Shown here piece after piece: positions 50,212 through 64,000 of a stretch of 64,000 nucleotides of DNA. The stretch comes from Corallococcus macrosporus DSM 14697 (lineage in GTDB: Bacteria; Myxococcota; Myxococcia; Myxococcales; Myxococcaceae): the NCBI RefSeq assembly GCF_002305895.1, contig NZ_CP022203.1:8404001-8468000 (forward strand), in the 5' to 3' direction. Position 1 is the first letter of the stretch; the number at the start of each line of letters is the position of its first letter. The position numbers and the translations under genes are program-made. The notes below the pieces were generated by a model, which worked only from the letters and a program-made list of their open reading frames with translations, ran no database searches and was not told where the DNA came from.

Positions 50212-51318
50212 ATGAGCGACCTCCGACGCGCCACCCGTGACGACAACGCCGAGCTGCTCGACCTGTTCGGCGCGGTGCCCATGCAGGGCGACCTGGTCCT
50301 CTCATCACAGCGCTCGCCCGACTACTTCGGCCTCTACGCCATGCAGCGCGGCGACACGGAGGTCTGGGTCCACGGTGCGGCCGGCGCACTGGACGGCATG
50401 GGCACCCTCCACGTGCGCGAGGGCTGGCTGGAGGGCCGCCCGTGCCGCGTGGGCTACCTGGGCGACCTCCGCACCCGCTTCTCCGCGCGCCGGGCTCGCG
50501 GCCCCGCGCGCTTCTATGGGCCCCTGCTCGAGGACCGTGCCCAGCGCCTGGGCGTGGACACCTTCCTCACGGCGGTCATGGCCTCCAACGCCGCCGCGCT
50601 CCAGTCGCTCGTGCGCCGCAAGCCCGGGCGCGTGAGCCAGCCGCACTACGCCCTGCTCCGCCGCTTCTCCGCCGTGTCCCTCCAGTTCCTGCGCCACCGC
50701 CGTCCCCAGCGAGGCGCGTTCGACGTGCGGCGCGCCACGCCCGCGGACCTGCCGGCCATGTCGGCCCTGCTGAACGCCGACCACCGTGCCCGCCCCTTCG
50801 GCTACCGCTTCGACACGGGCGAGCTGGCGCACCGGTTCGCCCACTGGCCCGGGCTGCGCATCGAGGACACCTACCTGGCCTTCGACGCGACAGGCGCGCT
50901 GGTGGGCTGCACCACGGCGTGGAACCCCGAGGCCGTGAAGCGCTACCGCGTGCACGCCTACCGCGGCGGCATGCGCTGGGTGCGGTGGGGGTGGAACACG
51001 CTGGCCACCGCCATGCGCGCGCCGCGCCTGCCCGCGCCGGGCAGCGACTTCCGCTACTTCTACCTCTGCAACACCAGCGTGCGCGGCGAGGACCCGGCCA
51101 TCCTCCGCGCGCTCGTGGAGCAGGTGTACGCGGACTTCCACGGCCAGGGCTTCCACTTCTTCACGCTGTACCAGGACGAGGCGGACCCGCTGGCGCCCGC
51201 GCTGAAGGGCTTCTTCCAGCGGCGGCTCGACTTCCACCTCTACGCCGTGACGCCCGCCTCACGCCCTCGGGACACCTTCCCCGCCGGACGGACGGGCTTC
51301 GAAATCTGCCTGCCCTGA
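50212..51318 (+). CDS. GNAT-like N-acetyltransferase with two domains
   Basis: 368 residues from the ATG at 50212. The first GNAT-like half has VWVHGAAGALDGMGTLHVRE and ARFYGPLLEDRAQRLGVDTF; the second begins FDVRRATPADLPAMSALLNA and contains YFYLCNTSVRGEDPAILRAL. No clean acetyl-CoA loop (R/Q-x-x-G-x-G/A) is seen in either half, so catalysis is not certain. Cytoplasmic, substrate unknown. Single gene. Confidence 0.78.
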   Translation: MSDLRRATRDDNAELLDLFGAVPMQGDLVLSSQRSPDYFGLYAMQRGDTEVWVHGAAGALDGMGTLHVREGWLEGRPCRVGYLGDLRTRFSARRARGPARFYGPLLEDRAQRLGVDTFLTAVMASNAAALQSLVRRKPGRVSQPHYALLRRFSAVSLQFLRHRRPQRGAFDVRRATPADLPAMSALLNADHRARPFGYRFDTGELAHRFAHWPGLRIEDTYLAFDATGALVGCTTAWNPEAVKRYRVHAYRGGMRWVRWGWNTLATAMRAPRLPAPGSDFRYFYLCNTSVRGEDPAILRALVEQVYADFHGQGFHFFTLYQDEADPLAPALKGFFQRRLDFHLYAVTPASRPRDTFPAGRTGFEICLP

Positions 51319-53359: not shown

Positions 53360-54421
53360 ATGGTCATCAGCCTGCCGCACGAAAGTGCGCCTGCGGTGCC
53401 TGTCGGGGGGGCCGCGCACTTCAGCCTCTCCAGCAGCGCGCGGGTGCTGGGAACTCTCCACCTGGGTCCGGGAGCGAACATCGCGCAAGGCGCGGTGGTG
53501 CGCTCGCATGACGGCGCCGTGCGGTTGGGCGCCGGCTCGGCCGTGATGGAGAACGGGGTCATCATCGGACTGCCACAGCATCCCGTCACGGTGGGAGAGA
53601 GGACCTTCCTCGACCACCGCAGCCTGGTGCTGGGCGCGGAGGTCGGCGCGCTCTGCGACGTGGGGGGCGGCTCCATCCTCATGCCGGGCGCGCGCATCGG
53701 CACGCGCTGCCTGCTGGGGGAAGGAACGCTCATCCCCGCGGGCACCGTGGTGCCAGACGACTCCGTCGTCGTGGGCCGCCCCGGCCGCATTCTCCGCCGA
53801 ACCACCGCGGATGACGTGGAACGGCTCCGGAAGCGGCGCGGCGGAAGCCTCGACCTGCCGGGCCAGCCACTCACCGCTTTCTCCGCGAGAGATCGCGCAG
53901 AGGACGCTCCCATGGGACAGCTCTATACGTTTCGCGACAAGCACCCACTGGTGCACCCCACCGCCACCCTCTTCTCCTCGGCCGAGGTGACGGGGGACGT
54001 CATCATCGGCCCGGGCTGCGTCATTGGCCCCGGGGTCAAGATTCTGGGAGACGGGAATGGCCCGGTGCGCATCGGCGCGGGCGTGCAGGTGCTGGCCAAC
54101 ACCGTGCTGCACCGGTTGTCGGACCACGCGCTGACGCTGGAGGACGGCGTCATCATCGGCCCGGGCTGTACGGTGCATGGCAGCCACGTGGGCGCGAACA
54201 CCGTGGTGGAGCCGGGCGCCATCCTCTGTGACGGGACGCGGTTGGGGCGCGGCAGCTTCGTGGGCGCGGGCAGCCTGGTGAAGCAGGGCAGCGCCTTCGC
54301 GGACGGCGCGCACGTGGAGGGCTTCCCCGCGACGCAGACCGGCACGCTGGCGTCACTGCCGCCGGTCCCCCGCTGGGCGCTGCGGCCCGAGGACCTGCCG
54401 GGCCTGCGGCGCATCGGCTGA
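53360..54421 (+). CDS. Double left-handed beta-helix hexapeptide protein
   Basis: 353 residues. Two hexapeptide-repeat domains in tandem: residues 15-150 (TLHLGPGANIAQGAVVRSHD, GVIIGLPQHPVTVGERTFLD, GARIGTRCLLGEGTLIPAGT) and residues 195-330 (EVTGDVIIGPGCVIGPGVKI, DGVIIGPGCTVHGSHVGANT). Both look like gamma-carbonic-anhydrase or acyltransferase folds. Possible metal-ligand histidines (HDGAVRLG, LDHRSLVLG, VHGSHVGAN) are present. Cytoplasmic. Function (carbonic anhydrase-like or scaffold) not certain. Confidence 0.88.
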   Translation: MVISLPHESAPAVPVGGAAHFSLSSSARVLGTLHLGPGANIAQGAVVRSHDGAVRLGAGSAVMENGVIIGLPQHPVTVGERTFLDHRSLVLGAEVGALCDVGGGSILMPGARIGTRCLLGEGTLIPAGTVVPDDSVVVGRPGRILRRTTADDVERLRKRRGGSLDLPGQPLTAFSARDRAEDAPMGQLYTFRDKHPLVHPTATLFSSAEVTGDVIIGPGCVIGPGVKILGDGNGPVRIGAGVQVLANTVLHRLSDHALTLEDGVIIGPGCTVHGSHVGANTVVEPGAILCDGTRLGRGSFVGAGSLVKQGSAFADGAHVEGFPATQTGTLASLPPVPRWALRPEDLPGLRRIG

Positions 54422-55110: not shown

Positions 55111-55665
55111 ATGCGTGGGAAGATGATGCGGGTGCTCGTGGTCATCGCGATGTCCGTCGGAAGCCCGGTCCTCGCGCAGAGCGTGCATGGCGCCTCCGGA
55201 ATCCAGGCGCCCGGCGGCGTCGCGGCATGGGCACCGGGCGGCAGCGTGGATTCCTCCCGTCAGCGCGCGGAGCACGAGCGGCTGGCGCGCGAGCACCAGG
55301 CCCGGCTGGAGCGGGAACGGCAGGAGCGGGAGCGCCAGGCTCGCATCGAACGCGAGCGTCAGGAGCGCCTGGAGCGGGAGCGGCAGGCCCGCATCGAACG
55401 CGAGCGCCAGGAGCGGGAACGACAGGCTCGCATCGAACGCGAGCGCCAGGAGCGGGAACGGCAGGCTCGCCTCGAACGCGAGCGCCTGGAGCGGGAGCGC
55501 ATCGCCCGCCTCGAACGCGAGCGTCAGGAGCGCTTGGAGCGGGAACGGCAGGCCCGCCTCGAACGCGAGCGTCAGGAGCGGGAACGGCAGGCTCGCATCG
55601 AACGCGAGCGCCAGGAGCGCGAGCGTTGGAACCGCGACCACCCCATGCGCGGGCGGCGGGGCTGA
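55111..55665 (+). CDS. Secreted Arg/Glu/Gln-rich single-helix protein
   Basis: 184 residues from the ATG at 55111 behind GGGAGG. MRVLVVIAMSVGSPVLAQ is a signal peptide. Residues 45-170 are continuous RERQERERQARIERERQER-type repeats with alternating charges i/i+4, predicted to form one long isolated alpha-helix. The tail is RDHPMRGRRG. The repeated GCGGGAGCGCCAGG units keep several frames open, and an antisense frame across it is an artefact. Likely periplasmic rod or spacer. Confidence 0.8.
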   Translation: MRGKMMRVLVVIAMSVGSPVLAQSVHGASGIQAPGGVAAWAPGGSVDSSRQRAEHERLAREHQARLERERQERERQARIERERQERLERERQARIERERQERERQARIERERQERERQARLERERLERERIARLERERQERLERERQARLERERQERERQARIERERQERERWNRDHPMRGRRG

Positions 55666-57632: not shown

Positions 57633-58814
57633 TCAAATCCAGAAGGCCATGTCGCGCTCGGCGTCCTCTGGCCCCGAGCCCTGACCTCCCTCGCGCAGCC
57701 AGCGGCGATACGCCTCGATGTCGGCGTGGTGCAGGTCCGCCTCCGTGCCGGAGTAGACGCCGCCGCCCGGGCCGTCCAGCAAGGCCTCGCGCTGGATGTC
57801 CATGATGACCACGTCCTGCGCGATGACCTGCCGCGTGTACCACCGCACCAACGGCCTCAGCGCGCGCCCCACCAGGGCCCCGGGGACGTCCACCGGCAGC
57901 CGGTAGCTGATGGCCGTGTAGACGAGGCTGTCCGTGGGCCCCAGCGGCGTACACTGCGAGTTGATGACGAAGCCGTGCTCGCCCCACAGGTAGTCCACGC
58001 GCGTGACGTTGGGGACGTAGAACCTGTCCGTGTGGAGCAGCGGCAGGCCGCGCGGATTGAAGAGCCGGCCCAGGCCCGTGACGGTGTCCTGCGCCTGCTT
58101 GTACGTCACCAGCACGCTGCCCGCCGTGCGCCGCACCGTGGCGGGCACCCGCTTGCTGGCGGGCCTGCGGAACCAGCCGGGGTGCACGAAGAGCGTGTGC
58201 GGGACGTCCATGAAGTTCTCGACGAGGTTCGTCACCCCGTTCGGGAAGCGCGTCACCATGAAGTAGACGTTCCAGCCCGCCTGGCCCCAGTACGGCACGC
58301 GGAACGGCGCGGCCCGCGCGGGCGCGGCGCCCCCCAGGTAGACGAAGACGAGGCCGTCCTGCTCCACGGTGGGGAAGCGCGTCAGCCGGCCCAGCGCGCA
58401 GGGCTCGGCCGCCAGCCCCTCGCGCGCGCAGCCCTCCGCGTCGAGCAGCTCGCTCCGCTGCGAGGGCCCCAATGACGGGACCTCCACCACGGCGCCCGAC
58501 GCGTCGTAGACCCAGCCGTGATACGGGCAGCCGATGCGCCCACCGAAGACCGCGCCCCGGGACAGGCGCGCGTTGCGGTGCAGGCACCGGTCCCTGAGCG
58601 CGGCGGGCCGCCCGTGCGCGTCACGGAAGAGGACCACCCCCGTGCCGAAGAGGGTCCGCGCCAGCGGCTGGCCTGGCTTCAGCTCGGTGGAGAGACACGC
58701 GACGTACCAGAAGTCCTTCAGCGCGCCGCACCGCGCGAGGTCGGCTTCAGCCTCCAGGTCCACGTTGGGGACAGGCGAGGTGTCGCGCGAATGCAGGCGC
58801 GGGGGCGGTCTCAT
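57633..58814 (-). CDS. Rieske-type non-heme iron oxygenase
   Basis: 393 residues. The Rieske 2Fe-2S site is C-x-H-x16-18-C-x2-H: DRCLHRNARLSRG and RIGCPYHGWVYD (about residues 73-98). The C-terminal domain has the mononuclear iron helix NLVENFMDVPHTLFVHPGWF (two His). It hydroxylates or demethylates a small aromatic, steroid-like or alkaloid substrate with O2; the family here resembles ketosteroid 9-alpha-hydroxylase/vanillate demethylase types. ATGA overlap with the GH3 gene. Last gene of the four-gene operon. Confidence 0.93.
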   Translation of the reverse strand: MRPPPRLHSRDTSPVPNVDLEAEADLARCGALKDFWYVACLSTELKPGQPLARTLFGTGVVLFRDAHGRPAALRDRCLHRNARLSRGAVFGGRIGCPYHGWVYDASGAVVEVPSLGPSQRSELLDAEGCAREGLAAEPCALGRLTRFPTVEQDGLVFVYLGGAAPARAAPFRVPYWGQAGWNVYFMVTRFPNGVTNLVENFMDVPHTLFVHPGWFRRPASKRVPATVRRTAGSVLVTYKQAQDTVTGLGRLFNPRGLPLLHTDRFYVPNVTRVDYLWGEHGFVINSQCTPLGPTDSLVYTAISYRLPVDVPGALVGRALRPLVRWYTRQVIAQDVVIMDIQREALLDGPGGGVYSGTEADLHHADIEAYRRWLREGGQGSGPEDAERDMAFWI

Positions 58815-60475
58815 GGGGTGACTCCGGAGAAATGGTCCGACCAGCCCGTCAGGCGGTGCAGGTCCGCGGGCTTGATGTCGCCCGCGCGCTGCCCCAGCGC
58901 GATGCAGCGGGCCTCGTAGCGGCGAGCCCCCTCCTCCACGCGCACGGCACGCACCGGGCCGAGCTGCCCCAGGGCCCGCGCGTAGCCGTAGTGATGTCCC
59001 TCACGGAGGGCGCGCTCCACCGCGTCCGCCGCTTCCGCGAGCCGCGCCTCGGAGGCGTCCGTCTCCAGGAACAGGACGTAGGAAGGCGCGGGGCTCCACT
59101 CGGGCGCCAGCATGGAGAAGCCAGGGCGCGTGCCGCCGAAGAGGTCCGGGAGGACGGCGTTGAGCACCGCGCTCACGCGCGTGGCGGCGAGCTTCTCCCC
59201 CACGAGGTCAGAGACGGCGTCCGCGCGGCCCACGAAGCGCAGGCAGGGGGTGGCGTGCTGGAAGCCCTCCACGCGGACCAGGTCGCCCAGGCGGTAGCGC
59301 AGCAGGCCGCCCGAGGTGGACAGCAGCACCAGGTACGTGCGGCCCTGCTCCAGCTCATGCGCCAGGCGTGGCCGCGCATCGGGCGCCTCGCTGTCGATGA
59401 ACTCATAGAAGTGGCTGCGCACCGCGAGCACGGGCGCGGGCGCATCGAAGAGGGGCACGGTGACGACGCCTTCCGTCGCCAGCAGGCCCTTGCCCTGGAC
59501 CTCCACGCCGGGGAAGCGGCGGCACGCGGCGGGCAGCGCCTGGGCCGCCTGGGCGTCCGTCCACATGCTCAGGAGCGACAACCGGGGCCACAGCGCCCGG
59601 GCGCTCCAATCGCCGTGGAGGACGGCTCGCAGCAGCGAGGCGCGCTCGGGATGCGGAGAGAAGCGCATCCGGGCCAGCACCGTCCGCTGGGCAGCGACCG
59701 CGTCCGTGGAGCCCGTCTCCGGAGGCCGGCAGCGCCCTTGAGCCAGGTCGTCCGCCAGCCGCTCACCGTGCCGCTCCAGCGCGGCCATGAGCAAGGTGAG
59801 GAAGCTCGGGTTCCACACGCTGAGGAGCGTCAGGTCCTCGCGGGCGACGAGGTGCCAGAGCGTCACGTAGCGGCACGACTCCACGTCCGGCAGCGCGCCC
59901 ACCTCACCGGGCACGGCGAAGATGCGCGACAACAACGGGCGCAAGAGACGCGAGAAGTAGGCGCTGTCCTCCGCGCTGCCCACGGGGATGCCGCCCGCCG
60001 TGCGCGCCTGCTTCCGCGCCAGGGGGGAGATGGACCAGTAACTGGCGCCCTCGCGCAGCGCGGGACGGCGGTGGAGCAGTTCGAAGAGCATGGGGGCCAG
60101 GGCGCGCTGGAACTCGGACAGCAGGCCTCGCGTCATGGGCACCCGCTTGCTGGCCCCGGACGAGCCGCCGGAGAGCTCGAAGCGCAGCACCGGCTCACGC
60201 GTGAGCACGCGGGCCTGCCCTGCCGCGATGCGCTCCACGTCGGGCGTCAGCGCGTCCGGTGTCACCCACTGCACCGCGTCCTGGAAGTCTCGCGCGCTCC
60301 GGACGCGGCGGAAGCCAGGGATGCGCTCCGCCTGGAGACTGCCCGCGACGGACTGGAGCACCCGCGCCAGGCACGCCGCCTGCGCGGCCTCGGGCTGGCG
60401 CAAGGCGCGGTGGAAGCGCAGCGCGGAGGGCGCGAGCACGGCCCGCAGGCCGCTCAGTGGCAGGGAGGGAGCCAT
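58811..60475 (-). CDS. GH3 auxin-responsive-promoter family protein (acyl adenylase type)
   Basis: 554 residues from the ATG at 60475 with GAGG about 10 bases upstream. The adenylate-forming GH3 core: LRFELSGGSSGASKRVPMTR (P-loop-like), VESCRYVTLWHLVAREDLTL, LVLLSTSGGLLRYRLGDLVR, and LRFVGRADAVSDLVGEKLAA. Plant GH3 enzymes adenylate carboxylic acids (auxin, jasmonate) and join them to amino acids; bacterial members have unknown substrates. Its partners here suggest an acyl or aryl amide product. Confidence 0.9.
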   Translation of the reverse strand: MAPSLPLSGLRAVLAPSALRFHRALRQPEAAQAACLARVLQSVAGSLQAERIPGFRRVRSARDFQDAVQWVTPDALTPDVERIAAGQARVLTREPVLRFELSGGSSGASKRVPMTRGLLSEFQRALAPMLFELLHRRPALREGASYWSISPLARKQARTAGGIPVGSAEDSAYFSRLLRPLLSRIFAVPGEVGALPDVESCRYVTLWHLVAREDLTLLSVWNPSFLTLLMAALERHGERLADDLAQGRCRPPETGSTDAVAAQRTVLARMRFSPHPERASLLRAVLHGDWSARALWPRLSLLSMWTDAQAAQALPAACRRFPGVEVQGKGLLATEGVVTVPLFDAPAPVLAVRSHFYEFIDSEAPDARPRLAHELEQGRTYLVLLSTSGGLLRYRLGDLVRVEGFQHATPCLRFVGRADAVSDLVGEKLAATRVSAVLNAVLPDLFGGTRPGFSMLAPEWSPAPSYVLFLETDASEARLAEAADAVERALREGHHYGYARALGQLGPVRAVRVEEGARRYEARCIALGQRAGDIKPADLHRLTGWSDHFSGVTP

Positions 60476-60485
60476 CACGCCGGCC

Positions 60486-61259
60486 TCACGTCCCCGCGCG
60501 GACGCCCGCGTGCCGCAGCCCGCGCCGGGCCCAGCCGCGAAGCTGTCCGGCCACGCTCCGGCCCAGCGCCAGGAAGAGGTCCCCCCAGCGAATCTCCACC
60601 AGACACACCAACTCCTCGCCCTCTCCGTGACGCGGGTTGCGCTCGGCGAAGAAGGCGATGTCCGGGTGCGTGGCCGCCGCGCGGTCGATGGGCGCGACGC
60701 CGTCACGCACGCGGTAGTGCGCGCCCTGGAAGCGGAGCGTGCCTCGCGCCACGTCGTACTGCGCGCCGAACCAGCGGGCGGCCAGCGCGTGCAGGAACTC
60801 GGCGCGTCCGGGAGGCGGCGTCCAGTCCCGACGAGGCATCGTCCTGGGGAAGTAGTTCACCGCCAGCAGGTACGTCTTGAAGCCGGCGCTCAAGAGCAGC
60901 CAGTGCAACGGCCGCAGGGGATGGCGGAGCTTGCGCGACAGCACGAAGCGCCCGAAGCACACCTGCAACACCTTGTGGCCCCACCAATCAGGGTGGATGA
61001 CCGTGTCCCCTGAATAGACCACCTGCACCTGTTGCCCGGCGGCGAGCTCCTCGGCGACGCGCAGGGTGCTGAAGCCCACCAGCTCCCCGCCTCGCCGCGT
61101 GTGGAGGAGGATGACGTACTGCTTGGCCTCCAGGTCCTCCGCGAAGCGCTCCGGCGACACGCCCGAATAGCAGCGCTGCATCAGCGCCAGCATCTGCCCG
61201 CGCTGCGCCTCCGTGAGCGCTTCCCGCCGCACCGTCGAGCCCCTGAGTGGCGACATCAT
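60486..61259 (-). CDS. GNAT/acyltransferase-like protein
   Basis: 257 residues. TEAQRGQMLALMQRCYSGVS, GELVGFSTLRVAEELAAGQQ, and VVYSGDTVIHPDWWGHKVLQ look like an N-acyltransferase fold, with RKLRHPLRPLHWLLLSAGFK and LAVNYFPRTMPRRDW afterwards. The acetyl-CoA loop is diverged (HPDWWGHKVL). Similar layouts occur in N-acyl amino acid synthase-type enzymes. No signal peptide. Its start overlaps the upstream stop (ATGA), and GH3 starts 10 bases after it. Confidence 0.8.
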   Translation of the reverse strand: MMSPLRGSTVRREALTEAQRGQMLALMQRCYSGVSPERFAEDLEAKQYVILLHTRRGGELVGFSTLRVAEELAAGQQVQVVYSGDTVIHPDWWGHKVLQVCFGRFVLSRKLRHPLRPLHWLLLSAGFKTYLLAVNYFPRTMPRRDWTPPPGRAEFLHALAARWFGAQYDVARGTLRFQGAHYRVRDGVAPIDRAAATHPDIAFFAERNPRHGEGEELVCLVEIRWGDLFLALGRSVAGQLRGWARRGLRHAGVRAGT

Positions 61260-64000
61260 GGCCGTGCCTGCCCTCGCGGCGTCTCCGGGCCGGGAGGCTG
61301 CCGCAGCGCGTGCGTGCGGTCCGCCTCCAGCGACACCTCCTGCACCTCCCCGCCATACCAGTGCACCCGCGCCGTCACGGGCCCCGCATACCGGCCCAGC
61401 CCGAAGTGCAGCCGCGCATCCGCCGACGCGGAGAAGCCGCCCATCAACCCGACCTCCTGCACCTGCTCCACGCGCCGCCCCGCCTCCTCGTAGGAGACGA
61501 CCACCCGGGTGCCCACCGCGCTCCGGTGCGTCCGCCCACCGTGGCCCACCAACGTGAGGCCCACGAAGTGCGCGCCCCCACGTCCCTCCGAGCGCAGCGT
61601 GTTGCGATACAGCGACACCGGCCCGTGCTGGTTGGTGATGAGCGCGTCCAGGTCGCCGTCCCCATCCAGGTCCGACAGGAGCACGCCCCGCGAGTTGTCC
61701 GGGTCATCCAACCCGAGCTCCCGCGCCAGGTCCACGAAGTGCCCGGGCTTCGCGTCGCCCAGGTTGAGGTACGCGCGGCGCGCCTCGTTCGGGTAGATGG
61801 TGCGTCCCCGGATGTCGCCCCACTTGTCCGCGTACGTGTGCACCTCCGGGCCGGACTGCATCAGCTTGTGATTCACATACCAGTAGTCCTTGCGCTGGCC
61901 GTCGGGGATGCGCCACCGCGCCGCGTCCAGGCGGTCATCCACCATGCCATTGGCCTGCACCAGGTCCGGCCAGCCGTCGTTGTCCAGGTCTCCCGCCGCC
62001 GCGCCCCAGCCGAAGCGCCGCTCGTTGAGCGCGCCGCGGAAGGTGGCCTCGTCCCGGAACGCCGGCGTGAAGGCGTCCTCCCCGGGGCCCACCATCCACA
62101 GCAGGCTGCCCTCCGCCTGGAGCGAGTGGTGGACGTTGGAGACATACAGGTCCAGCCAGCCGTTGCGGTCGAAGTCCGCCACGGAGGCATTCATCCCCTT
62201 GTACGTGTCCTTTCCAATCTCGCCGAAGAGCCGGCCCGCCACGCGGCGGAAGTGCGTGCCGCCCTCGTTGAGGTAGACGTCGTCCGGCCCGAAGTCGTTG
62301 GCCACGTACAGGTCCGTCCAGCCGTCGCGGTTGAAGTCCACCGTGCTCACCGCCAGCGACCAGTGCGTCTGCGGCATGCCCATGGCGGCGAGGTCCACCT
62401 TCTCGAAGGTGCCGTCTCCCCTGCCGCGATAGAGCGCGTTGAGCCCGCCGTTGGCCGCGTTGTGCCAGCCGTCGTGCATGAAGCGGAACATGCGGCGGTC
62501 GTCGGGGTGCTCGGGCTGGGGCAGCCGGAAGAGGTTGAGCGGCACCGGCGGCGTGTAGTCCGGCAGGTGCGTGGTCATCACGTTGAGGACGAAGAGGTCC
62601 AGGTGCCCGTCCCGGTCATAGTCCAGGAAGGTGAGGCCCAGGCTCACCGCGTGGTCCGTCACGCCCGCGGCCTCCGTCACGTCCTCGAAGCCCGCCGTGC
62701 CCGTCTCGCGCAGCGTGTTGCGCAGCAGGCGGACGGGCCCGAAGGCCACCGCCACCGCGAGGTCCAGGTCGCCGTCACCGTCCCAGTCCACGAAGGTGCC
62801 GCCGCCCGGCAGGCCCTCTTCCTTGTACCGCGTGGCGAAGCGCTCCAGCGCGGGCACGGGCACCCGTTCGAAGCGAAGCTCGCCGAGGTTGCGGTAGAGG
62901 ACCGCGTGGTCCTCGGGACGGCCCAGGGGGTGCGTGAGGAACAGGTCTGGCCGGCCATCGCCGTCGAAGTCCCCAACGGCGACGGCATCCCCCACCGCCA
63001 CCAGCCACTTCGCGACGTGCCCGAGCCGGGGGTCCAGCTCCTCCAGCGTATGGCCCATGGTGGAGCCCAGCCCTGCGGCGCGCGCGTCCACGCGCTCCAT
63101 GCGGAAGTCTAGCGGCGTGGCCCTGGCGCCCGGCGTGGCGGCCAGGGTGTAGCCCCCCAGCATGAGGGCCCCGAGTCCCCCCACCACCGCGGCGCGCTTC
63201 AGCCAGCCGGAGGACACCAGCGTGCGCAATGACTCGCGCCCCCCGCGCCGCCACGCGGCGCGGGCGTGGAGGAAGAGGAACCGCGCGGCGGCGCACGTGA
63301 GGGCCGCATAGAAGAACGTGTAGACGCTCTCCTTGAAGTGCAGCACCAGGTCCACCAGCGTCACCGCCAGCGCCAGCAGTATCTGCCCGCGCCGCGTGCC
63401 CGGAGACGTGGCCGGGTCGGTGAGCATGTAGAAGACGAAGATGAAGAACGACGGCGCGCCGAGCGTGCCGAGGAAGAGGACCTCGGGCGGCAGGTGGTGC
63501 CGGAGCACGTAGGCGCGCAGCGCCGTCTGCAGCGCGTAGAAGCCGAGGAAGCTGACCACCAGCCACCCGCGCCCCACCCGGAAGAAGAACAGCACCAGCG
63601 CCGCCATGAGGATGAAGGCGGAGAGCGCCACCTCCCCGTTGGCCCACTGGTACGCGGGCGCGGCGGTGATGAGCTCCCGCGTGAAGAGCAGCGACAGGGC
63701 CACGCCGAACATGGACGGGTTGAAGACGTGGCGGCCCTGGAAGGTGAGCACGTACTTCGAGCCGATGGCGATCCACACCGGGAAGAGGAGCAGCCAGCTC
63801 GAATGCGAATAGTTGAGCAGCAGCGCCAGCGAGCAGCAGGAGATGTATGCGCTGAGGGGCACCACCTTCTGCCGCTTCAGCGTCCACCCGAGCGCCATGT
63901 CCAGCGCGCTGCCCGTCACCACGATGGTGGCCATCTGCCAGGGGCTGCGGTTGAAGCCGAAGAAGGTGAAGCCGAGCACGCCGTAGAGCGTCAGCAGGAA
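61256..64000 (-). CDS. RnfD/NqrB-like membrane protein fused to FG-GAP repeats and an ASPIC/UnbV domain; 5' end beyond window
   Basis: The frame is open to base 64000, so the start lies outside; at least 914 residues are visible. Residues before about 250 of the visible part have several membrane helices with the RnfD/NqrB signatures GRHVFNPSMFGVALSLL and YMLTDPATSPGTRRGQ. The usual covalent-FMN motif is not seen. Then a periplasmic half of FG-GAP/VCBS repeats (AVGDFDGDGRPDLFLTHPLG, VDWDGDGDLDLAVAVAFGPV, DYDRDGHLDLFVLNV, DFNRDGWTDLYVANDFGPDD, DLDGDGDLDALITNQHGP) and a C-terminal ASPIC/UnbV domain (AVGTRVVVSYEEAGRRVEQV, VHWYGGEVQEVSLEAD). A CRTAC1-like protein tied to a redox-type membrane module. 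Probably first visible gene of the operon. Confidence 0.92.
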   Translation of the reverse strand, partial: FLLTLYGVLGFTFFGFNRSPWQMATIVVTGSALDMALGWTLKRQKVVPLSAYISCCSLALLLNYSHSSWLLLFPVWIAIGSKYVLTFQGRHVFNPSMFGVALSLLFTRELITAAPAYQWANGEVALSAFILMAALVLFFFRVGRGWLVVSFLGFYALQTALRAYVLRHHLPPEVLFLGTLGAPSFFIFVFYMLTDPATSPGTRRGQILLALAVTLVDLVLHFKESVYTFFYAALTCAAARFLFLHARAAWRRGGRESLRTLVSSGWLKRAAVVGGLGALMLGGYTLAATPGARATPLDFRMERVDARAAGLGSTMGHTLEELDPRLGHVAKWLVAVGDAVAVGDFDGDGRPDLFLTHPLGRPEDHAVLYRNLGELRFERVPVPALERFATRYKEEGLPGGGTFVDWDGDGDLDLAVAVAFGPVRLLRNTLRETGTAGFEDVTEAAGVTDHAVSLGLTFLDYDRDGHLDLFVLNVMTTHLPDYTPPVPLNLFRLPQPEHPDDRRMFRFMHDGWHNAANGGLNALYRGRGDGTFEKVDLAAMGMPQTHWSLAVSTVDFNRDGWTDLYVANDFGPDDVYLNEGGTHFRRVAGRLFGEIGKDTYKGMNASVADFDRNGWLDLYVSNVHHSLQAEGSLLWMVGPGEDAFTPAFRDEATFRGALNERRFGWGAAAGDLDNDGWPDLVQANGMVDDRLDAARWRIPDGQRKDYWYVNHKLMQSGPEVHTYADKWGDIRGRTIYPNEARRAYLNLGDAKPGHFVDLARELGLDDPDNSRGVLLSDLDGDGDLDALITNQHGPVSLYRNTLRSEGRGGAHFVGLTLVGHGGRTHRSAVGTRVVVSYEEAGRRVEQVQEVGLMGGFSASADARLHFGLGRYAGPVTARVHWYGGEVQEVSLEADRTHALRQPPGPETPRGQARP

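Follow-up and report, generated by a model that had tools for sequence, protein, structure and literature searches.

The window analyzed here (64,000 nucleotides, C1:8404001-8468000, within the 8.97-Mb single-contig genome of Corallococcus macrosporus DSM 14697) ends in a four-gene set that encodes, in the order of transcription on the minus strand, a UnbU-UnbV fusion (gene 1), a GNAT-fold acyltransferase-like protein (gene 2), a GH3-family enzyme (gene 3), and a Rieske oxygenase (gene 4). Our comparative sequence data indicate that this set is a real predicted operon, tightly conserved in predatory myxobacteria. It appears to unite two modules, gene 1 and a GNAT-GH3 pair, and its probable product is an undescribed lipid-like amide. 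All 25 distinct loci recovered from Myxococcus, Pyxidicoccus, Corallococcus, Archangium, and Hyalangium keep genes 1 to 4 in the same order on one strand, far above chance expectation; this was the comparison that the initial annotation had set beforehand as its refuting test. Myxococcus species are the closest named relatives with the locus. The ATGA overlaps and the 10-bp gap described in that annotation match the coordinates exactly (Table 1). Among the 25 loci, the overlap of genes 3 and 4 is available in 20, other genera among them, and that of genes 1 and 2 is kept in 13 of the 14 Myxococcus/Pyxidicoccus loci, whereas in other genera these two genes lie 3-16 bp apart. Genes 2 and 3 are separated by a variable distance.

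In all four genes, third codon positions differ between relatives about 2.8-3.1 times more often than second positions, which shows that all four frames are coding and under purifying selection. Pairwise distances of the four operon proteins are correlated (0.92-0.98), as are those of two syntenic neighbour proteins, and this agreement fits vertical inheritance of the locus. Genes 1 to 3 occur together on one strand in 42 of the 195 Myxococcota genomes searched. In 12 same-genus genomes, genes 1 and 3 are absent and gene 2 is represented by a distant paralogue at most; the set is thus gained or lost as a unit. A 226-aa membrane protein with about 5-6 predicted helices, whose gene begins 115 bp upstream of the operon on the opposite strand, is probably part of the system because in the distant loci L087 and L122 its counterpart sits within the operon, flanked by gene 1 on one side and the GNAT/GH3 genes on the other. 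The initial annotation had proposed a compact, undescribed pathway. The conservation and the combination of GH3 enzyme, acyltransferase fold, and oxygenase sustain this proposal, but the four genes form a single unit only in Myxococcaceae and their relatives; gene 1 and GNAT-GH3 are separable, since each is found without the other in other genera. Searches of the literature on bacterial GH3 operons and on UnbU/UnbV function, with most subscription journals outside their reach, retrieved no description of the set. A record named Comamonas sp. KCTC 72670 (L043; BNCN01000005.1) carries the whole Myxococcus locus with 82-93% protein identity and is probably a misnamed myxobacterium.

Table 1. Features of the operon and its associated double-GNAT gene (positions in the window)
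Feature	Position	Strand	Size	Remarks
Gene 1, UnbU-UnbV fusion	61256-64123	-	955 aa	61256..64000 inside window; ATG 123 bp beyond window edge, at L007:13124
Gene 2, GNAT-fold acyltransferase-like protein	60486-61259	-	257 aa	Steady partner of gene 3
Gene 3, GH3-family acyl-acid amido synthetase	58811-60475	-	554 aa	Predicted acid-adenylating ligase; length from its ATG
Gene 4, Rieske non-haem iron oxygenase	57633-58814	-	393 aa	
ATGA start/stop overlap, genes 1/2	61256..61259	-		
Gap, genes 2/3	60476..60485	-	10 bp	
ATGA start/stop overlap, genes 3/4	58811..58814	-		
Double-GNAT protein (family F4)	50212-51318	+	368 aa	6.3 kb from operon, convergent

Gene 3 exceeded the Pfam cutoffs for the GH3 N, central, and C domains (PF03321, PF23571, and PF23572), and its three ATP-binding motifs (SGGSSGASKRVP, ATEG, and YRLGD) are aligned and kept, so that its earlier placement in the acid-adenylating GH3 family stands. 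A GH3 gene lies within 10 kb of a gene 2 homologue in 58 of 64 Myxococcota loci. In a GH3 tree built from a non-random sample of 43 proteins, every GNAT-linked member (19/19) fell into one clade of 24 with 100/100 support, and none of the 19 proteins outside it was linked; of the five clade members that lack a GNAT nearby, two sit on contigs of at most 7 kb, where the partner was possibly cut off. Gene 2 homologues adjoin GH3 genes across Myxococcota and Proteobacteria, and these neighbourhoods and the tree indicate that the GNAT-GH3 pairing is an old module. The clade takes in Burkholderia, Acinetobacter, and Citrobacter plasmid sequences, each with GNAT and double-GNAT genes nearby, and the further neighbours are a Rieske gene (Burkholderia), HlyD, MFS, and outer-membrane efflux genes (Acinetobacter), and four radical SAM genes (Citrobacter). 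In other Myxococcota, the module is accompanied by genes for fatty acid hydroxylase, 3beta-HSD, AurF-like, ferredoxin, short-chain dehydrogenase/reductase (SDR), MMPL, M20 peptidase, and alpha/beta hydrolase proteins; in L088, an M20-family peptidase gene is directly upstream of the GNAT gene. The double-GNAT gene, which lies outside the interval first annotated, holds a syntenic position close to the operon in Corallococcus, Archangium, and Myxococcus, and its homologues, one of which reaches Pfam Acetyltransf_1, stand beside GNAT-GH3 in L088, L092, L094, L099, and L142-L144. Judged by this gene context, its product belongs to the GNAT-GH3 module.

Two long conserved clusters (L090:4612-17693 and L095:8559-17188) contain Rieske, GNAT, SDR, uncharacterized F9, AurF-like, Fer2, Rieske, fatty acid hydroxylase, Hexapep, GH3, and 3beta-HSD genes. 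In Acinetobacter baumannii (L144:5150-12826), HlyD, MFS, GNAT, GH3, outer-membrane efflux, and double-GNAT genes follow in a row; this record, a 3.97-Mb 'plasmid', is probably a mislabelled chromosome. A Hexapep protein at 53360-54421 of the window was considered as a module member and rejected: it is syntenic with the operon, but it is carbonic-anhydrase-like, unlike the Hexapep proteins of L090 and L095.

Gene 1 matched FG-GAP_3 (1.4e-40) and UnbV_ASPIC (3e-12) in its C-terminal part and NQR2_RnfD_RnfE (6.7e-9) in its N-terminal part, and both halves match adjoining genes of enediyne cassettes (E3/E4/E5/E/E10; UnbV, UnbU, UnbL, PKSE, TEBC). Such a cassette, with the order DUF1702, UnbV, UnbU, large iterative polyketide synthase (PKS), and hot-dog thioesterase, was found in L126, where the KS-AT-KR-DH organization of the large PKS was verified, and in L133. 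The homologous pair is also adjacent in Streptomyces records, annotated as CRTAC1 paired either with RnfD or with enediyne biosynthesis protein. By homology, gene 1 is a natural fusion of UnbU and UnbV, which are neighbouring separate genes in the cassettes, with a domain order the reverse of the cassette gene order. The fusion of proteins that are neighbours elsewhere argues that UnbU and UnbV work as a single physical unit. The sequence hints at a C-terminus in the periplasm, from an arginine-rich stretch ahead of the final predicted helix, and at a calcium-binding propeller of seven blades, from seven DxDxDG-like loops; an AlphaFold2 model of gene 1 had a predicted local distance difference test score (pLDDT) of 34 and was not used.

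The initial annotation called gene 1 an RnfD/UnbV fusion and took it for a redox-type membrane protein. The UnbV half and the membrane half were borne out, but the membrane half is UnbU rather than RnfD. It resembles RnfD/NqrB of the Rnf and Na+-NQR complexes in exceeding the Pfam cutoff and in its FNP and TDP motifs, whereas gene 1 differs from them in its fusion to a propeller, in lacking the covalent-flavin motif, and in being the sole PF03116 protein, and likewise the sole PF07593 protein, found in the genome (E. coli served as the positive control for the PF03116 search). The covalent flavin mononucleotide attachment motif was missing from all 23 UnbU sequences compared, which keep an H-x-x-N-P motif and a (T/S/P)DPxT(S/T)P motif. 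Since no other PF03116 protein was found, no Rnf or Nqr complex makes use of gene 1, and both a working RnfD and a classical redox-complex subunit were given up in favour of two fused enediyne-cassette proteins. The fusion lies away from GNAT and GH3 in genera g18 and g40 (L115-L118), where its UnbU part is 60-66% identical, and in L115 and L117 its gene overlaps by 4 bp the gene for a SCO1/SenC-cytochrome c-YHS protein. This coupling is the best hint of a redox role for the fusion.

The enediyne-type cassettes lie at L126:2971-13081 (G010, same genus, 13.3-Mb genome) and L133:3098-13256 (G104, another genus of the same family). A Serratia proteamaculans plasmid (L140; NZ_MT039191.1 32487-52769) has DUF1702, UnbV, and UnbU beside separate ketosynthase, SDR, glycosyltransferase, and methyltransferase genes; the 20-kb stretch displayed lacks a large type I enediyne PKS gene. 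A second UnbU context, without UnbV, was seen in L125, L128-L132, and L134, where UnbU-like genes adjoin or fuse with a DUF2330-type gene.

Gene 2 had no Pfam match. On a low-confidence model (pLDDT 62), its Foldseek matches were nearly all GNAT (best E, 1.4e-4); the protein thus appears to have a GNAT fold, and the GNAT label given earlier is kept at the level of the modelled fold. Searches of PDB sequences with gene 2, the AurF-like protein, and F9 returned nothing useful. Gene 4 matched Pfam Rieske (6.2e-23), and conservation of both the [2Fe-2S] motif (CxH...CxxH) and the 2-His-1-Asp motif (NFMDxxHxxxxH) upholds its naming as a Rieske oxygenase. These iron motifs are shared with dicamba demethylase DdmC and 4beta-methylsterol monooxygenase SdmA, to both of which gene 4 scored about 72-74 bits. 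Sterol demethylation, raised by the SdmA similarity and by the 3beta-HSD neighbours elsewhere, was rejected for this operon, as gene 4 reached 71.7 bits against an SdmA equivalog cutoff of 600 and no ferredoxin or reductase gene adjoins it.

A functional precedent is the OlsH/OlsI ornithine-lipid pathway of planctomycetes, described in 2025, in which the GH3-like OlsH makes N-acyl ornithine in an ATP-dependent manner (PMC12493201). In both systems, an operon encodes a bacterial member of the GH3 family that carries ATP-binding motifs, and alpha/beta hydrolase genes occur near some GNAT loci (L097, L099, and L101); the system here differs in having neither an OlsI (alpha/beta hydrolase) nor an OlsG gene and in having GNAT, double-GNAT, Rieske, and UnbU-UnbV proteins of its own. 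We tentatively favour, at somewhat less than an even chance, a reading in which the operon makes and handles at the membrane a lipophilic product with an amide linkage; a fatty-acyl or other long-acyl conjugate of an amino acid or amine is the likeliest candidate. GH3 would use ATP to adenylate a free carboxylic acid and then condense this acid with an amine, the part that ornithine plays in the OlsH reaction; the dedicated GNAT, aided by the double-GNAT protein, would draw on an acyl thioester to add another acyl or acetyl group; the Rieske oxygenase would hydroxylate or demethylate the product; and UnbU-UnbV, at the inner membrane and in the periplasm, would either oxidize the poorly soluble product or present and export it. 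ATP-dependent amide formation is proposed because the GH3 ATP motifs are kept and OlsH provides a precedent, and a lipid-type product because the neighbours of the module elsewhere include fatty acid hydroxylase, 3beta-HSD, MMPL, alpha/beta hydrolase, M20 peptidase, and efflux genes. Gene 1 is placed in the pathway because it shares the operon in 42 genomes and also in distant families with the six-helix membrane protein (L087 and L122).

Several points weigh against this reading. Gene 3 scored 32.7 bits against the OlsH equivalog NF052613, whose cutoff is 620; it is not OlsH, and neither ornithine nor a fatty acid can therefore be assumed as its substrate. The GNAT assignment of gene 2 depends on a weak model, the operon has no ferredoxin or reductase gene for the Rieske enzyme, gene 1 is also found away from GH3, and both substrate and product are inferred. 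The same gene neighbourhoods might instead serve a small secreted specialized metabolite, with GH3 coupling an amine to an acid of aryl, short-chain, or terpenoid type, the GNATs acetylating the conjugate, and the oxygenases tailoring it. This would suit tailoring genes that vary by taxon as in natural-product clusters (Rieske, AurF-like, radical SAM/B12, and SDR), the tripartite exporter of Acinetobacter, and the structurally solved plant GH3 enzymes, which take indole-acetic, jasmonic, and benzoic acids; we nevertheless consider it unlikely, given the lipid-pointing neighbours (fatty acid hydroxylase, MMPL, and hydrolase), the use of fatty acids by OlsH, the only bacterial GH3 precedent consulted, and an operon with no PKS or nonribosomal peptide synthetase gene.

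The role of gene 1 admits other explanations. It is quite unlikely, in our estimate, that UnbU-UnbV serves as an electron-transfer unit, supplying the Rieske oxygenase or oxidizing its product by way of quinone or periplasmic carriers. The RnfD/NqrB ancestry of UnbU, the 4-bp coupling of the orthologous fusion to the cytochrome c protein in L115 and L117, and the occurrence of a Fer2 ferredoxin in module loci lacking UnbU (L090, L093, and L095) but not in those with it (L007, L087, and L122) speak for such a unit, whereas the missing covalent-flavin motif, the lack of any other Rnf/Nqr family protein, the predicted cytosolic Rieske protein set against a predicted periplasmic UnbV, and the service of UnbU-UnbV in PKS cassettes without a Rieske gene (L126 and L133) speak against it. 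A shared transcript with two unrelated functions, an envelope role for gene 1 and a pathway for genes 2 to 4, could account for the fusion standing alone in g18 and g40 (L115-L118) and for GNAT-GH3 without the fusion in many genomes; it appears decidedly improbable when gene 1 is joined to genes 2 and 3 in 42 genomes, with ATGA coupling in Myxococcus, as well as in the distant genomes G186 and G148, and when the whole set is missing together from 12 same-genus genomes. Homology of both halves of gene 1 to cassette proteins also raised an enediyne or polyyne warhead as the product. We hold this to be extremely improbable, since the operon, unlike the cassettes, has no iterative PKS or thioesterase gene, and DUF1702 was not found in the genome by a search that was positive in three relatives (G010, G104, and G190). 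A homospermidine-lipid (hsl) origin was considered and set aside on the strength of the source paper's text, which names hsl genes and MXAN_1675/1676 without linking them to the set.

The favoured amide-lipid reading uses enzyme kinds that are already known, and the system itself is not of a new kind; the gene combination is undescribed. The authors of the OlsH study expect other N-acyl amino acids from other bacterial GH3 clades (PMC12493201), and the GNAT-linked clade would be one further such clade, defined by its steady partners. A broader proposal, possible but doubtful, is a cross-phylum cluster family (GH3 subfamily, dedicated GNAT, and double-GNAT) that makes exported amide lipids or signals, with a myxobacterial UnbU-UnbV that oxidizes the product at the membrane without an enediyne PKS. 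The present findings gain wider relevance from matching gene sets in Acinetobacter and Burkholderia. As late as 2024, it was described as uncertain what exactly the enediyne-cassette proteins E3/E4/E5 do (PMC11069151), and membrane-level oxidation by UnbU-UnbV, if true, would reveal the role of UnbU/UnbV in enediyne biosynthesis. PKS-free natural fusions in Myxococcus, for which genetic methods exist, make this role testable without a cytotoxic product.

DUF2169 and PAAR-like genes of the type VI secretion type adjoin the operon immediately beyond the window (L007:14020-15633), and on this side gene content differs among relatives. Within the window, positions 55111-55665 encode a small protein consisting mostly of RQERERQARLERER-type repeats after a possible signal sequence.

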